Assembly (NCBI RefSeq): GCF_007005445.1
Contig: NZ_CP041387.1
Span: forward strand, 1,736,001-1,800,000
Reading direction: 5' to 3'
Length of the DNA stretch: 64,000 nt
From: Rhodopseudomonas palustris
GTDB taxonomy: Bacteria > Pseudomonadota > Alphaproteobacteria > Rhizobiales > Xanthobacteraceae
The translations under genes and the position numbers were made by a program. The notes under the pieces were generated by a model, which was not told the origin of the DNA, searched no databases, and worked only from the letters and a program-made list of their open reading frames with translations. Of this stretch, positions 5,568-26,570 are shown piece by piece; positions within the stretch are counted from its first letter, which is position 1; the number at the start of each line of letters is the position of its first letter.

Positions 5568-8500
5568 ATGGCCAAACATCCGACGCCGGACCAGTCCGAC
5601 CCGCACGCCGGCCATGATCGCAACGACCCCACCTGGCACGAAGGCGGCCAGTGGGATCACGAGCACGACGAAGACGCGCGGTATCGCGCTCGCAAATTGC
5701 TCAAGCGTCGCAACCTCGGCCTGCATTCCATCGACGACTGGTCGAGCCGCCGCACGCCCGCGGCGCCTTGGCTGAAGCGGACGCTGCTGACCCTGGCGAT
5801 CGTCGGCATGGTTCTGGTGGCCGGATTCGCCGGGGTGTGGCTTCGGCTCGGCGCCGGTCCGATCAACCTCGACATGGTGACGCCGTGGCTGGCGGACGCG
5901 ATCGAAGACAACATCGGTCACGGCAACACGGTGGAAATCGGCGGCACCCAGATCGAGCGCGCGGGGCGGATTCGGGTCGCGGTGCGAATTCGAGACATCG
6001 TGGTCCGGGACCGCGACAATGTCGTCATCGCCTCCGCGCCGAAGGCGGAGGTGCGATTGTCCGGCTCGGCGTTGCTGATGGGCAGGCTCCGCGCCGAGAG
6101 TTTGCGGCTGGTCGGCGCCGAACTGGCAATCAGGATTGATCCCGAAGGACGGGTGACGGTGTCGACCGGGGCCACGGCGCGGCCGCTCGCCACCGGGGTC
6201 GCACCAACTGGCCGCCCGGCCGAATTCAAGCTGCCCACCGAATCCACGCCGCCGGCCGCCACGCCGATGACTCCCGACGGCTCGTCGTCCGCGACCGCCA
6301 CGCCGGCGCCAGGCAGCGACAACTCTTCGGACCCGATGAAGGGCATGCTGGCCGGGCTGGCATGGCTCGACGGCCTGAGCATGGCGGGGCTGGATGGTCA
6401 GAACCTGAACGAGATCGGGCTCAAGAACGGAAGTCTCGTGGTCGAGGACGAGCAGCGGGGCAACCGCTGGACGTTCGAGAACATCTCCCTCAGCCTGCGC
6501 CGGCCGAGCCATGGCGGCGTGGCGCTGAGTATCGGCGAGGAGGGCACGAAAGCCTGGTCGCTGCGAGTCCAGGTCGGGGCGGCCCAAGACGGAGTACGCG
6601 CGGTCGAACTGCATGCCAACCAAGTGCCGACCCGCACCGTTCTCCTGGCGCTGCGGCTGAAGAACCTGACCTACAGCGCCGATTTTCCACTCACGGGTGA
6701 TTTCAAAGGCGAAGTCGGCCGCGACGGCGTGCCGACCTATTTCCGCGGCAAGCTGACTGCCGGGGCTGGCACCGTGATCGATTTCGACACCCCGGACTAT
6801 CCGATGGCGATCGATCAGATCGAAACCTCGTTCGAATGGGATGCCAATCGCCGGGTGCTGATCGCGCCGTTCAAGGTGCTGGCCGGCCCGAACCGGGTGA
6901 CGCTGCTGGCGTCGCTGGAGCCTCCGAACGGCAGCGTCAATGATTGGCGGCTGGGGCTGTCCGGCGGCACCATCGTTCTTCCGGGCGCGCAGAACGAGAG
7001 CCCGCTGATCTTCAACCGGATCGCCGTGCGTGTCCGGTTCGACGGCGCCAACCGCCGCGTGCTGCTGACCCAGGCCGACGTCAGCAACGGCGAGATCGGC
7101 GTCGCCGGATCGGGCAGCATCGATTACTCCGGGGAGCCGCGACTGACGCTCGGTCTTGCCGGCACGCCGATGTCGGTCTCGGCGCTGAAACGGATGTGGC
7201 CGGTGCTGATCGTGCCGGAACTGCGCGAATGGGTGAACGACCGCATCCGCGCCGGTTCGATCCAGACCATCGACATCGCCATTAACTCGCCGATGAAAAA
7301 CCTGTCGCGGCGCGGCCCGCCGATTCCGGACGAGGGGCTGCTGGTCAATATCCTCGGCAGCGGCGCGACGATCTATCCGGTCGATGGCATGCCGACCGTG
7401 AAGGATGCCGACATGCGGGTGCGAGTGACCGGCCGCACGGCGACTGTCGCGATCAATCAGGCCAATGCGGACACGGACGGCGGTCGCAAGATCGCGCTGT
7501 CGGACATTCTGTTCGAGGTCCCGGATCTGGCGCCGAAGCCGGCGCCGTCGCGGATCAGGTTCAAGCTCGAAGGTCCGGTTCCGGGGGTCGCCGAAGTGCT
7601 CGCCTCCGGCCGGCTCAGCGATGCGGCCGCCTTGCCGATCGATCCCAACACCAGCAAGGGCAACGTCTCGGCGCAGGTCGCTCTCGGCATGCCGATCCAG
7701 CGTGAGCTGACCAAGCAGGACACCAGCTATTCGATTACCGCCGACCTCAGCGGATTCTCTGCCGACAAGGTGGCGATGGGGCAGAAGCTCGAAGCCAATA
7801 CGCTGAAGGTGATCGCCAACAACCAGGGCTATCAGGTCAAGGGCGACGTCAAGATCAACGGCCAGGCGGCGGCGCTGGACTATCGCAAGCCGGTCGACGG
7901 CGACGCCGACGTCAAGCTGCAGGCGACGCTCGACGACGCCAGCCGCGCGCGGCTCGGAGCCGATCTCGGCAGTGGTCTCTCGGGTCCGCTCGGGGTCAAG
8001 CTGAACGGAAAGATCGGCGATAACGAACAGGATTCCAAGTTCGCGATCGAAGCCGATCTCACGCCGGTGAAGATCGACAATCTGCTGCCGGGGTGGAGCA
8101 AGCAGCCGGGCAAGCCCGGCAAGGCCGCCTTCAACGTGGTGCGCAAGCCGCAATCGACCCGGCTCGACGACGTCACCGTCGAGGGCGGCGGCACCCTGAT
8201 CAAGGGCTCTCTTGAAGTCGATCCCGACGGCGACCTGATCAACGTCAACTTCCCGGTGTATTCGCCGTCCGAAGGCGACAAGGCGATGCTGAAGGCGGAC
8301 CGCGGCACCGACGGCGTGCTGAAGGCGGTGATGCGCGGAGATGTGTTCGACGGCCGTGGCTTCATCCGCTCCGCGCTGTCGGGCAGCTCCGCAGATTCAA
8401 AGGGGAAGAGCATCGATTTCGATCTCGACCTCAAGTTCGGTGCGGTCGCCGGCTTCTACGGCGAGGCGGTGCGTAGCCTCGAGGTCAAGACGACGCGGCG

Positions 8501-21350: not shown

Positions 21351-21767
21351 TTGGGTCTGCGTCTGAACGGAGTGATCGAAACGGCGCTGTATGTCGACGA
21401 CCTCGATCGCGCCCGAAGCTTCTACCAGGACGTCCTGCTGCTGAGTCCGATGACGAGCGATCAGCGGTTTTGTGCTTTCGACGTGGGCAGCCGCAACGTG
21501 CTGCTGCTGTTCAAGCGGGGCAGCACGCTGGAGACGGTCCATCTGCCGGGTGGCACGATCCCGCCGCATGATGGCAGCGGACCTGTCCACATCGGACTGT
21601 CGGTCGATCGCGACCGGCTCGGCGAATGGGAAGCGCGCCTGACGGAGCATGGCGTGGAGATCGAAGGACGCACGGAGTGGCCGCGCGGCGGGTCGAGTAT
21701 CTATTTCCGTGATCCGGATCGCCATCTGTTGGAACTTGTGACGCCGGGTGTCTGGCCGATTCATTAG
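21351..21767 (+). CDS. VOC superfamily (glyoxalase/dioxygenase fold) protein in suf cluster
   Basis: 138-residue vicinal-oxygen-chelate fold protein with paired beta-alpha-beta-beta-beta modules. Likely metal ligands are the first-strand E10 (VIETALYV), a histidine in VHIGLSV and a glutamate in HLLELVTPG. The start is TTG at 21351 with GAGGACGG overlapping the preceding stop region; GTG at 21372 is the alternative. Only seven bases separate it from the sufT-like gene, so it is probably co-transcribed with suf. The reaction cannot be read from sequence; a role linked to Fe-S assembly is only suggested by position. Confidence 0.85.
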   Translation: MGLRLNGVIETALYVDDLDRARSFYQDVLLLSPMTSDQRFCAFDVGSRNVLLLFKRGSTLETVHLPGGTIPPHDGSGPVHIGLSVDRDRLGEWEARLTEHGVEIEGRTEWPRGGSSIYFRDPDRHLLELVTPGVWPIH

Positions 21768-22268: not shown

Positions 22269-22316
22269 GTTCCATCGGATCTGATTCAAACTTTACATTC
22301 CGTCAGAAGTGCAGAG

Positions 22317-22340
22317 CGCGCGGTACGCTACCGCGCGGTA
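22317..22340 (+). terminator. Possible terminator after suf cluster
   Basis: Perfect 9-bp stem CGCGCGGTA / TACCGCGCG with a 3-base loop, followed by GTATTT rather than a strong T-run. Its position between sufA and the next unit suits a terminator or mRNA 3' end. Confidence 0.5.
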
Positions 22341-22422
22341 TTTGCGTCTGCGAATTAAGTGCGCTTTAAGGGGCGGCAAGTGAATACCTCTCCAAGGGTG
22401 AAACGATCAGGGGAGGATCACC

Positions 22423-24387
22423 ATGAAGCGCCGCGATTTTCTGCTTGGAGCTGCAGCCGTCGGTCTCGGTGGACCGCTGCTGGCGAAGGCGGCAATCTCT
22501 TCCCTGCACGCCGAACCGGCGGCGCGGAAAGGGGCGAAGATCGCCAAGGTCGCGATCTTTCCGGCGATCGGCTTCTCCCGCGTCGGCAATGCCGAGGACT
22601 GGTTTCTGGCACCGGAGGTGCCGGGCCTGCTCGACGAGCCCGAAGGCGGCTTCAAGGACAAGCAGGGACGGATCAAGAAACAGGTGCAGCGCTTCCGCCT
22701 GTTCGGCTACGACGACCAGGGCCGGGTGGTGCGCGAACTCGATGCCGCCGACGGCGTGACCTGGAGCGTGCACGTCGCCAATACCAAGGCGGCCTGGTAC
22801 GGCTTCATCAACGCGATGGATCGCGGCGACAGCGCGCCTGGCGTCCCCGGCGCGCAGCGCAACGCCTTCATCGCCGCCGACAAGCGCGAAGCGATGCTGT
22901 GCATCGACGCCGGCAAGCTGGAGATCGCCGGCGCCTCGACCAACCCCAAGGGCGGTGACGACAAGTATCGGATGAAGGGCCGGTTCTGGCAGACGCTCGA
23001 CGTCTCGCTCGGCCATCTGCGCACCGACGACAAGGGACGCCTGCTGGTATTTGCTGCGGACGGCGTGTCGCGCACCGCGCTGCCGCAGAATCCGGTGCGC
23101 GATTTCACCAACAATGACGGCTGGCACGACGATTGGGCCGACGGCTGGGTCAAGGCGACCGTCACCGTCGACGGCCAAAAGCTCGATTGCGATCCAGCCT
23201 GGGTGGTGTGCTGCGGGCCGAAATTTGCGCCGCAGCTCGAGCCTATCGTGACCCTGTACGACGCCGCGCACGAAGCGATGGTCGCGCTCGGTCAGATCAA
23301 GCCGCCGGCCGACAAAGTGTCGTTCCGCCGCGACGTGCTGCCGATCCTGCGCCGTGCCGGCACGATGCAGTGGGTTGCCGCAGCCTCGTTCCTCGGCGCG
23401 GCGTGGAACGACATCGGCGATCTGTCGGACCCGGCGACGATCGAGATGTTGGCAAAGCCGGGCGCGGAGGCGAGGGCCGAGCGCAAGAAGGTGTTCGATG
23501 CCTTCCGTAGGCCCGACGGCACCGACCAGCGCAATCACGCCATTCCGATCATGCTCGGCGACGGCGTCAATTATCAGGACAGTGCGCATTCCTGGCTGGC
23601 ACTGACTCGGCCGCAATACCGCGTGCTGGAATTGTGGGCCGACGGCAAGTTCGAGGCCGACTACGCCGACAAGAGCGCCGACGCCGTCCGCCTCCTCGAC
23701 GATCTGCCGATCGAACTACGCCCCGAGGCGATGACACGCGCCGCGCTCGACGCCTGTTCGGGTGGTGCGTTCCATCCCGGCGTCGAGATCACCTGGCCGA
23801 TCCGCCACAAGGAGCTGTATCGCGGCCCGAACGAGACCAGGCTGCCGTTCCGTATTGCGCTGTCGAACCGCAAGAGCCTGGCGCAGGACGTCGGGCTGCA
23901 GCTCAACCCGGTCAACGTGTTTGCCGGCAATCCCGACAAGCCGGATCAGGGCAGGCCGATCGGCCCGCAGGCGCCCGGCGATCTGACGCGCTGGATGGGC
24001 GTGCCGTGGCAGGGCGATGCGTTCAGTTGCCAGGCCGTGCTCACCGCCAGCGGCTTTCCGACACCGGTGTGGTGGCCGGCGTTGCTGCCGGTCGATGTGC
24101 TGCCCGAGGCGTTCTATCAGCAGATGATGCGCACCGATCTGACCGAAGAAGAACGGCTGCGGTTCTATCACACGCGGGTGCCGTGGGCGCGCGGCGCGGC
24201 CGGCATCGGGCTGCACGTCGAGGCCGGCTACACCGATGGCCTGCGCCGGATGATCGAGCTCTGGACGCAGATGGGCGTCGTCGTGCGCCGCCCCGGCCCG
24301 AAGGGGCTGCCCGGTGTGCCCGATCAACTTTATGTCGAGGTGCAGCGCGGTTCGATGGATATCGCGGCGCCAACGCTACCGCGCTGA
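22423..24387 (+). CDS. LodA/GoxA-like quinoprotein oxidase with Tat signal
   Basis: Predicted cysteine-tryptophylquinone (CTQ) oxidase of the LodA family, whose known members oxidatively deaminate lysine (epsilon-amine) or glycine with release of peroxide. 654 residues. The N-terminus MKRRDFLLGAAAVGLGG is a Tat-type leader. Family blocks include NNDGWHDDWADG (230-241), DACSGGAFHPGVE (443-455) and PWQGDAFSC. C536 with D532 four residues earlier matches the LodA Cys516/Asp512 spacing as I recall it; W588 (VPWARG) is my candidate for the crosslinked Trp, W550/W551 being alternatives. AGGGGAGG precedes the ATG. The LodB-like partner starts 5 bp after the stop. Family is fairly sure; substrate unknown. 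Confidence 0.82.
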   Translation: MKRRDFLLGAAAVGLGGPLLAKAAISSLHAEPAARKGAKIAKVAIFPAIGFSRVGNAEDWFLAPEVPGLLDEPEGGFKDKQGRIKKQVQRFRLFGYDDQGRVVRELDAADGVTWSVHVANTKAAWYGFINAMDRGDSAPGVPGAQRNAFIAADKREAMLCIDAGKLEIAGASTNPKGGDDKYRMKGRFWQTLDVSLGHLRTDDKGRLLVFAADGVSRTALPQNPVRDFTNNDGWHDDWADGWVKATVTVDGQKLDCDPAWVVCCGPKFAPQLEPIVTLYDAAHEAMVALGQIKPPADKVSFRRDVLPILRRAGTMQWVAAASFLGAAWNDIGDLSDPATIEMLAKPGAEARAERKKVFDAFRRPDGTDQRNHAIPIMLGDGVNYQDSAHSWLALTRPQYRVLELWADGKFEADYADKSADAVRLLDDLPIELRPEAMTRAALDACSGGAFHPGVEITWPIRHKELYRGPNETRLPFRIALSNRKSLAQDVGLQLNPVNVFAGNPDKPDQGRPIGPQAPGDLTRWMGVPWQGDAFSCQAVLTASGFPTPVWWPALLPVDVLPEAFYQQMMRTDLTEEERLRFYHTRVPWARGAAGIGLHVEAGYTDGLRRMIELWTQMGVVVRRPGPKGLPGVPDQLYVEVQRGSMDIAAPTLPR

Positions 24388-24392
24388 TCTTG

Positions 24393-25496
24393 ATGGGCCG
24401 GATCGCCGTAATCGGCGCAGGGGTGGCGGCGCTGGCCGCCACGCGCACGCTGGTGCTCGCCGGACGACGGCCGCTGCTGATCGCGCCCGATCGTGACGTG
24501 ATCAGCCGCGGCGAAACGTTGTCACCCGCGGCCGCGGGATTGCTGGATCACCTGCAATGGTCCGATCTGCTCGACGACGAAACATCGGTGATGAGCGAAG
24601 GCCGTTTTTCGGTCTGGGGCGACGCGAAGTTGCGCCGTGCCGCGCCAGGCGAGGGGGCCGGCTGGCACATCGACCGCGCCGCATTCGAGCGGCGGATGCG
24701 CGGCAAGCTGCAGAGCGATGCGATCGAATGTTCTGCGATCATCGTGACCATGCTGGCGCATCACTGCGACGGAGTCGTGATCGAACTCGGAGATGGCCGC
24801 GTCGTGTTCGCCGACGCGGCGATCGATTGCAGCGGCCGCGCCGCGTTGTCGTCGGGGACCGCTGCGGGGCGTCGCCGCACCGACCGGCTGGTCGCGGTGT
24901 GGCGCGTGCTGGTCCTGCCGGACGAGACTGAGCCCGCTGCGGCGACGCTGGTCGAAGCAGTTGCGCTCGGCTGGTGGTACATGGCTCCGCTACCTAGCCG
25001 CCGCATGATGCTCGGCCTGTTCACCGACACCGATCTGTTACCGCCCGGCGCGACGCAAGATGGCGCCAGGTGGACCGAGTTGGCTGCGTCGACGATCGCG
25101 ATCGCACCGCGGCTGCGCAGCCTTGGTCTCGATGAGATCGCTGGGTGCGAGCCGCCGCAGGTCGCGCCCGCCGCCACCGTCACGGCCAGCCGGTTGATCG
25201 AAGGGCGCATCCTGCGCGCCGGCGACGCTGCGGCGGCGCTCGATCCGCTTGGTGCCAACGGGCTCGCCACCGCGCTGTGGAGCGGGGTGGCGGCCGCGGA
25301 GGCGGCATTGACACTCGCCGACGGCGAGCGCGAGCGCGCCGACGCCTATGAGCGCGATTACTTGCAAGGGATTGCGCAGCATCTCTTCACCCAGCAGGCG
25401 ATGTATGCCGCCGAAGCGCGCTTCGCCGATGCGCCGTTCTGGCAACGCCGCCGGCCCGCTGCATCGTCCCACCCTCAAGAGGAGACACTGCCATGA
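24393..25496 (+). CDS. LodB-like FAD-dependent maturation flavoprotein
   Basis: 367-residue flavoprotein of the monooxygenase/tryptophan-halogenase fold. LodB-type partners are needed to form the CTQ cofactor of LodA-type enzymes in the cytoplasm. The N-terminal dinucleotide motif is IGAGVAALAATRTL, and the FAD ribityl motif is GDAAAALDPLGANG. No signal peptide or membrane segment is seen, in keeping with cytoplasmic cofactor synthesis before Tat export of the folded partner. ATG 24393 lies 5 bp after the LodA-like stop; its last bases overlap the RidA-like start (ATGA). The assignment leans on linkage as well as sequence. Confidence 0.8.
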   Translation: MGRIAVIGAGVAALAATRTLVLAGRRPLLIAPDRDVISRGETLSPAAAGLLDHLQWSDLLDDETSVMSEGRFSVWGDAKLRRAAPGEGAGWHIDRAAFERRMRGKLQSDAIECSAIIVTMLAHHCDGVVIELGDGRVVFADAAIDCSGRAALSSGTAAGRRRTDRLVAVWRVLVLPDETEPAAATLVEAVALGWWYMAPLPSRRMMLGLFTDTDLLPPGATQDGARWTELAASTIAIAPRLRSLGLDEIAGCEPPQVAPAATVTASRLIEGRILRAGDAAAALDPLGANGLATALWSGVAAAEAALTLADGERERADAYERDYLQGIAQHLFTQQAMYAAEARFADAPFWQRRRPAASSHPQEETLP

Positions 25497-25969
25497 CCAA
25501 CTTTTTGCGCACGCTGCTCGCGGCGGCTGCCCTTGCCGTCGCGATGCCGGGCCTGGCTTCCGCCGAATCCAGCGCGGTGAAGATCATTGCGCCGACCGAC
25601 AAGACCATCACGCCGAGTGGCACCTGGAGCATCGGCGCGCGCGCCGGCGACTTCGTCTTCATCGGCGGCATGCGCGGTACCGACCGCGTCACCGGCAACA
25701 TGGTCGACGGCGACGAGGCCCGGATCCGGCGGATGTTCGACAACATGCTGGCGGCGGCCGAAGCGGCCGGGGCGACGAAATCGGATGCGGTGCGCCTCAC
25801 GGTGTTCGTCACCGACGTCGCCAAGTATCGGCCGGTGGTCAACAAGGTGCAGAAGGATATCTGGGGCGACGGCCCGTATCCGCCGCGCACCGTATTGCAG
25901 GTGCCGGCGCTGGATCAGGGTGACATCGCCGAGATCGACGGCACGTTCTACGCGCCGGAGAAAAAATAG
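25493..25969 (+). CDS. RidA/YjgF-family protein with Sec signal peptide
   Basis: RidA proteins deaminate reactive enamines and imines formed by amino-acid-converting enzymes. This 158-residue copy carries an export signal: residues 1-24 form a charged start, hydrophobic core and AxA cleavage site (LASA|ES). The core has GDFVFIGGM, the R132 of YPPRTVLQVPAL and E147 fifteen residues later, matching the catalytic Arg/Glu pair spacing of E. coli RidA as I recall it. Its start overlaps the LodB-like stop (ATGA), so the three genes are one transcription unit. A periplasmic role in clearing the oxidase's imine product is inferred. Confidence 0.85.
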   Translation: MTNFLRTLLAAAALAVAMPGLASAESSAVKIIAPTDKTITPSGTWSIGARAGDFVFIGGMRGTDRVTGNMVDGDEARIRRMFDNMLAAAEAAGATKSDAVRLTVFVTDVAKYRPVVNKVQKDIWGDGPYPPRTVLQVPALDQGDIAEIDGTFYAPEKK

Positions 25970-26051
25970 CCTTCAGCCGGCACTTTCGCCGCTATGCTGA
26001 GCGGCGGTGCGTATGGTCGCACCGCCCGATCCGTCAGCGCTGCGAGTCGCC

Positions 26052-26570
26052 ATGGACCGCGAATTCCTCGCCGACCTGTTCTCGCCGTTCGGCCCTGTGA
26101 CGATCCGGCGGATGTTCTCCGGCTTCGGTGTCTCCGCCGACGGCGTGACCTTCGCGCTGGTGATCCGGGATGCGATCTATCTACGCACCGACGCGGACGG
26201 CGCGGCCCGGTTCGAGGCCGAGCGCAGCCGTCCGTTTCGCTATGATACGCGCGACAAGACCGTGACGGTGGGGTCGTACTGGCTGCTGCCGGAGCGGCTG
26301 CTCGACGATCCCGAGGAGTTCGCCGACTGGGCGAGGATCGCTTTCGCCGTGGCCGAGCGTGCGGCGCTCGCCAAGGCGGCCCGCAAGCCGCGAAAGGCGG
26401 CGATCAAGACGGGGACATCGGCCAAACGCGAGGCGAAGTCCGCCGCGAAGGCGGTGAAGAAGGCTGGTGCGAAGACGGCGAAAGCCAAGGCTGCGACAGC
26501 CAAGACGGAGAAGGCTAAGGCTGAGAAGGCTAAGACCGCCGCCCCGAAGCGCAGCCGGCTTCCTCGGTGA
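26052..26570 (+). CDS. TfoX/Sxy N-terminal domain protein with Lys/Ala-rich tail
   Basis: About 172 residues. The N-terminal ~105 form a TfoX-N domain (FSPFGPVTIRRMFSGFGVSADG, then YLRTD and the SYWLLPERLLDD block). The remainder is almost entirely Lys/Ala/Thr, like a histone H1 C-terminal tail. TfoX/Sxy promotes CRP-dependent competence genes in gamma-proteobacteria, but stand-alone TfoX-N proteins in alphaproteobacteria have no established function. ATG 26052 fits the domain boundary; GTG 26007 and ATG 26013 in frame could add up to 15 residues. The tail hints at nucleic-acid binding, which is inference. Confidence 0.8.
   Translation: MDREFLADLFSPFGPVTIRRMFSGFGVSADGVTFALVIRDAIYLRTDADGAARFEAERSRPFRYDTRDKTVTVGSYWLLPERLLDDPEEFADWARIAFAVAERAALAKAARKPRKAAIKTGTSAKREAKSAAKAVKKAGAKTAKAKAATAKTEKAKAEKAKTAAPKRSRLPR

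Follow-up and report, generated by a model that had tools for sequence, protein, structure and literature searches.

Why does a gene for a Rid-family protein with a predicted export leader lie directly behind the genes for a putatively exported quinoprotein oxidase and its maturase-like partner? The question is raised by a locus of Rhodopseudomonas palustris, found in a stretch of 64,000 nucleotides (contig NZ_CP041387.1, positions 1,736,001 to 1,800,000), hereafter the window. Here the original prediction had described a tightly packed unit of three genes, encoding an oxidase with a cysteine tryptophylquinone (CTQ) cofactor, a flavoprotein maturase and a RidA protein. Three open reading frames (ORFs) on the + strand, all starting with ATG, were confirmed at this site (22423-24387, 24393-25496 and 25493-25969; 654, 367 and 158 aa), with the described 5-bp spacing between the first two and the 4-bp overlap (ATGA) between the last two. 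The unit is real and conserved; it extends the goxAB operon for glycine oxidase by a third gene, and we infer a mechanism for it.

The first gene, goxA (22423..24387, +), encodes an oxidase that belongs to the GoxA (glycine oxidase) group and is predicted to depend on CTQ and to be exported by the Tat route. The protein had been called LodA-like; its CTQ residues and its Pfam LodA_N and LodA_C domains (both above cut-off) bear this out at the level of the superfamily, but its type is that of GoxA. It passes the NCBIfam GoxA model NF038173 with 875.2 bits (cut-off 750) and fails the LodA model NF038172 with 181.2 bits, under the cut-off of 600, and a LodA assignment was rejected on this ground. 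The best matches among solved structures were likewise GoxA entries, e.g. PDB 6byw. C536 (24028..24030, +) and W551 (24073..24075, +), the predicted CTQ cysteine and tryptophan, align with positions 682 and 697 of the PDB GoxA chain and are invariant in a 14-row alignment, while D532 (24016..24018, +) aligns with position 678. H451, Y603 and F228 correspond to positions 583, 766 and 316 of the same chain, which we take to be active-site residues. By its Cys and Trp residues the protein is predicted to be a CTQ-type oxidase; glycine, its putative substrate, is taken from the family. The predicted twin-arginine leader (MKRRDFLLG..., 22423..22512, +, cleavage site placed by eye) contains R3-R4-D5-F6-L7, invariant in the same alignment, but scores 16.6 bits with Pfam TAT_signal, below the cut-off of 22.7. 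In its available text, the 2015 survey (PMC4417212) reports a twin-arginine motif for most group II proteins, and the MKRRDFL of the window protein fits it.

The flavoprotein gene, goxB-like, sits directly behind goxA (24393..25496, +) and encodes a protein in which no leader was seen. With Pfam Trp_halogenase and FAD_binding_3 domains above cut-off, it is, as judged from its sequence, a flavoprotein of the GoxB/LodB/QhpG kind, in agreement with the proposed maturase-like partner. Its nearest PDB chain is CmlS (3i3l), and the available text of PMC7876137 compares GoxB and QhpG with this structure.

The third gene, ridA (25493..25969, +), the start of which overlaps the goxB stop, encodes a Rid-family protein with a leader. 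It scores 55.2 bits with Pfam PF01042 (Ribonuc_L-PSP, Rid superfamily), above the cut-off of 27.3, and is matched by PDB 3lme_A (E 9.5e-81), its mature part being nearly identical in the alignment. 3LME is a Rid-family chain with a solved structure titled 'possible translation initiation inhibitor'; a keyword search of the open-licence literature found no publication on its function. The predicted Sec-type leader (25493..25564, +) ends in ASA, with cleavage placed by eye after A24. By a rough hydropathy score, with starts picked by eye and many rows from one genus, all 23 scored gox-linked Rid rows, including that of the window, carry a hydrophobic leader (mean hydropathy of at least 2.0 over ten residues), and the four Rid paralogues of the same genome score 1.81 at most. 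The leader that had been proposed for this protein is supported, and its export is predicted. Alignment identified R132 (25886..25888, +) as the equivalent of RidA Arg105, the imine-deaminase arginine, which is kept in all 22 gox-linked Rid rows and in two of the four other Rid proteins of the genome; N and E are present at two further checked positions in the gox-linked rows. This arginine is needed for imine hydrolysis by Rid proteins, according to the available text of PMC4433059 and PMC5619798; the window protein is a putative imine deaminase. Rhp-PSP, a Rid protein with antiviral action from R. palustris JSC-3b, was considered and dropped: its two peptides printed in the available text are absent from the window protein and resemble another paralogue of the genome (L159).

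In order to see how widespread the linkage is, we counted ridA behind goxB in several samples. In a family sample of 391 genomes, the counts from which are not phylogenetically independent, 58 genomes had a GoxA/LodA-like match at E 1e-10, 17 of them (own genome included) at 69% identity or more, and ridA lay directly behind goxB in 15 of these 17, the exceptions being G309 and G327. The 16 best RidA places (at least 189 bits) were these 15 gox-linked ones and one in G098, a genome without a GoxA match, where the gene lies behind a purL-like gene. Within a genus sample of 16 genomes, ridA (RidA match at E 1e-15) was found in all 12 that have GoxA and in none of the four that lack it. A set of named records comprised the best 80 of 256 GoxA loci and therefore leans to close relatives. 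Counted by tblastn, with weak matches of an earlier Rid profile (e.g. in L032 and L067) discarded, ridA was the next gene after goxB in 20 of the 80 loci (19 intact, one a fragment), including 15 of the 21 loci at 69-94% identity. Since the whole genome of 5.04 Mb holds only five PF01042 matches, window RidA included, a pairing at this frequency goes beyond chance. The presence of ridA behind goxB in many other genomes and records confirms the expected synteny and rules out a linkage specific to this strain; such a restriction had been named beforehand as a reason for doubt, as had membership in another family and a lack of the CTQ Cys and Trp, where we found LodA_N/LodA_C and C536/W551. Only a minority of GoxA loci show the linkage, and these fall into two regions of the GoxA tree. 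Elsewhere in the flank, a Rid gene was detected in two of the 80 loci (L101 and L116), of which a tblastn recheck confirmed L116 only. The fragment, at 6445-6684 of L059, lacks the 5' half of ridA and is likely a decaying copy. Thalassobaculum litoreum has two GoxA loci (L090 and L112), with ridA at just one. No GoxA-Rid domain fusion was found among the best 120 of 514 proteins, of which only some candidates were scored.

The two parts of the GoxA tree (86 rows, quick method) carry different Rid proteins. Five distant ridA-bearing loci, from Devosia equisanguinis, alphaproteobacterium BAL199, Roseibium hamelinense, Lamprobacter modestohalophilus and one locus of Thalassobaculum litoreum, formed a single clade (type 2) with a support of 100 in the Shimodaira-Hasegawa-like approximate likelihood ratio test (SH-aLRT). 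This clade is distinct from a Rhodopseudomonas-Methylobacterium-Bradyrhizobium group with 25 rows, 18 of which have a type-1 ridA in a pattern of presence that needs four changes. The GoxA proteins of L081, a type-2 locus, and of L085 pass the curated GoxA cut-off, and GoxB of L081 passes the GoxB model with 497.7 bits. In a Rid tree of 43 rows, forcing all 22 gox-linked rows into one clade costs 138.5 log-likelihood units and is rejected by the approximately unbiased test (p-AU 1.8e-53), the constrained group having been chosen after a first Rid tree. The p-AU for the type-1 Rid proteins as a single clade was 0.053, and the type-2 proteins were recovered as a single clade in 64% of the bootstrap replicates. 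Because the Rid lineages differ between the two regions of the GoxA tree, these trees indicate that ridA was recruited behind goxB at least twice. A pairing that has apparently arisen at least twice suggests that GoxA and the linked Rid protein work together outside the cell.

Within one genus, the genes are present or absent together as a block. G108, a genome without GoxA, has sufA-homologous DNA followed after ~60 bases by tfoX-matching DNA, whereas ~3.78 kb lie between the same matches in the window; G108 lacks exactly this block, the left edge of which falls in the 154-bp gap between sufA and goxA (22269..22422, +). In G125, G089 and G181, sufA is present and the search at E 1e-15 gave no tfoX, so that none of them offers a comparison as clean as G108. 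The ratios of nonsynonymous to synonymous substitution rates (dN/dS) were 0.08-0.14 for ridA in six comparisons, 0.06-0.18 for goxA and 0.14-0.37 for goxB; in the comparison with L055, the most distant of them, dS is above 1.

Several observations weigh against joint work of the two proteins, among them the loci that do without ridA. Six of the 21 close loci lack it (Alcaligenes L057 and L058, Bradyrhizobium L061, L062 and L067, and L065), and L059 retains just the fragment. Among the other 59 loci only five have it, although the contig of one (L068) ends behind goxB; most of the GoxA loci examined are without ridA. A class-wide sample of 385 genomes gave 11 matches at E 1e-60, own genome included; three further GoxA-type loci among them (L183-L185, 46-52% identity) showed no ridA within ~360 bases behind goxB, and the other seven, more LodA-like, showed none in the stretch examined. 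In Marinomonas mediterranea, goxAB is described as a two-gene unit in the available text of PMC3948610. With 60 of the 80 loci lacking ridA behind goxB (L068 included), the gene is not required for GoxA function generally. A search for a recurrent third gene other than ridA, by means of ten chosen downstream ORFs from ridA-less loci, returned unrelated families, and none for one of the ORFs. The gaps among close relatives and the fragment of L059 are what would be expected if ridA were a neutral neighbour that hitch-hikes with goxAB without any joint work. We consider this very unlikely, as two Rid lineages have been recruited to the same position and strand, ridA is under purifying selection, and it comes and goes with the block.

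What, then, would the Rid protein do for GoxA? Rid genes are known from clusters with genes for FAD amine oxidases, and Rid proteins hydrolyse the imines which those enzymes make (available text of PMC4433059 and PMC5619798). In our best explanation, the GoxB-like flavoprotein would help to build the CTQ cofactor of GoxA inside the cell, and GoxA would exit folded via the Tat route, as its leader and the known gox and lod systems suggest. Outside the cytoplasm it would oxidise glycine or a closely related compound, with glyoxylate, ammonia and hydrogen peroxide as the products expected from its family. The co-translated Rid protein, leaving via the Sec route, would hydrolyse 2-iminoacetate or related imines, stemming either from the oxidation or from glyoxylate and ammonia, and thereby keep imines from building up near the oxidase.

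The chemistry of the cofactor counts against this scheme. Quinoprotein oxidases with CTQ or tryptophan tryptophylquinone (TTQ) are generally thought to release an aldehyde, the nitrogen staying on the cofactor, with no free imine. A free imine would therefore have to form afterwards (e.g. from glyoxylate and ammonia) or through unusual chemistry. Because the source of the imine is uncertain, we hold it about evenly balanced whether RidA removes iminoacetate or similar imines that extracytoplasmic glycine oxidation gives rise to, and we keep the rival explanations. A bolder version, a dedicated extracytoplasmic imine-clearing module, is possible but rather doubtful: this CTQ branch would release 2-iminoacetate or another small imine un-hydrolysed, and the reaction would be finished by the exported Rid protein, a type recruited on at least two occasions. 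If true, this would be a case of a Rid protein serving a quinoprotein oxidase outside the cytoplasm.

Relatives of the type-1 Rid protein also occur apart from gox genes. Among 20 such loci that were fetched, 12 have a leader by eye, and a purL-like gene lies upstream in all four loci where its ORF was scanned (L164, L165, L166 and L168). Type-2-like Rid proteins with a leader are likewise present in genomes that gave no GoxA match. Since leader-bearing relatives exist away from gox genes, for instance behind purL-like genes, export alone is no pointer to GoxA, which is a further point against a tie between the two. RidA could instead be a general exported scavenger of imines or enamines, captured into the gox operon for its expression and finding its main substrates in other extracytoplasmic reactions. 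Both the leader-bearing relatives in other genera of the family, one of which is flanked by BolA and glutaredoxin genes (L166, the only locus where Pfam was run on the small ORFs), and the type-2-like proteins fit this explanation. It is unlikely in our view, given that ridA in the genus sample accompanies GoxA strictly (12/12 vs 0/4) and that two separate Rid lineages were recruited to one slot.

The remaining points against the scheme come from the proteins themselves. With TIGR00004, the model of the RidA subfamily proper, the window protein scores 52.5 against a cut-off of 106.25. The best maturase model for the second protein, NCBIfam NF038174 (GoxB), reaches 263.1 bits (QhpG 154, LodB 130), below its cut-off of 400. 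The position that we take to be Tyr17 of the E. coli Rid protein (numbers of its positions other than that of the arginine are presumed) is Trp in every type-1 row (17 of 17), whereas the five type-2 rows have Tyr. This Trp would suit a role of RidA as a protein partner of exported GoxA, in assembly, as a holdase or as a peroxide shield, rather than as an enzyme acting on its product. Such a partner would also agree with the constraint on ridA, similar to that on goxA, and with the 4-bp goxB-ridA overlap, which recurs in 10 of 11 Rhodopseudomonas rows (some of them duplicate records) besides the window. Even so, all 22 linked rows, from both Rid lineages, retain the deaminase arginine, and such a partner is missing from many GoxA loci; we regard this role as improbable.

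Compared with known systems, the window unit is close to goxAB of M. mediterranea, where a flavoprotein gene likewise follows a gene for a CTQ oxidase with a Tat leader (predicted in the window), and the window oxidase scores above the GoxA cut-off of NCBIfam. That operon differs in having two genes and oppositely oriented neighbours, and the available text of PMC3948610 mentions no Rid gene. lodAB (L-lysine epsilon-oxidase) shares the superfamily, the CTQ Cys and Trp and the flavoprotein partner, but the window oxidase fails the LodA model (181 vs 600) while passing that of GoxA. Clusters of Rid genes with FAD-dependent amine oxidases share the adjoining of a Rid gene and an amine or amino acid oxidase; they differ in that their oxidases are flavoenzymes with an imine intermediate (available text of PMC4433059), and the main text of that paper uses none of the words quino, periplasm or signal peptide. 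As neighbours, the available text of the 2015 survey (PMC4417212) gives lodB-like genes, tyrosinases, multicopper oxidases and, in 10 genomes, a small gene lying between lodA and lodB; its main text has none of the terms L-PSP, YjgF, endoribonuclease or translation initiation inhibitor. That a Rid link is not part of the described lodAB systems, as originally stated, agrees with our keyword searches of the open-licence literature, where none of the matches listed joins lod or gox with Rid genes, although such a paper may be in print elsewhere. Two candidates were rejected: the Rid protein of PMC9537276 (chitin oxidation) belongs to a different pathway and is described as cytoplasmic in the available text, and PMC13310141 contains homonyms only (LoDA for low DMSP accumulators, 'rida' as an author's name).

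In their available text, the Rid papers cited above treat the family as a protection from imines that PLP enzymes and flavin oxidases make. That a leader-bearing Rid protein is repeatedly linked with a quinoprotein oxidase is suggestive of extracytoplasmic imine stress, and it makes testable whether CTQ oxidases release an aldehyde or an imine. It also offers a candidate function for the solved, uncharacterised structure 3LME.

Around the unit, no match to a sigma-70-like promoter consensus was present in the sufA-goxA gap, and none to a terminator consensus was found. A glyoxalase/VOC-like ORF with a TTG start (21351-21767) lies immediately ahead of the sufA-like gene, and downstream of ridA the window encodes a TfoX_N protein with a long Lys/Ala-rich tail (26007-26570). 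In other genera of the family, the order purL, small ORF, ridA, small ORF was seen in L162, L165, L166, L169 and L178 (also in L164 and L168). Finally, L167 (from G021) has three consecutive Rid domains at 5983-6909 and 7086-7781, two of them fused in a single ORF with a leader.

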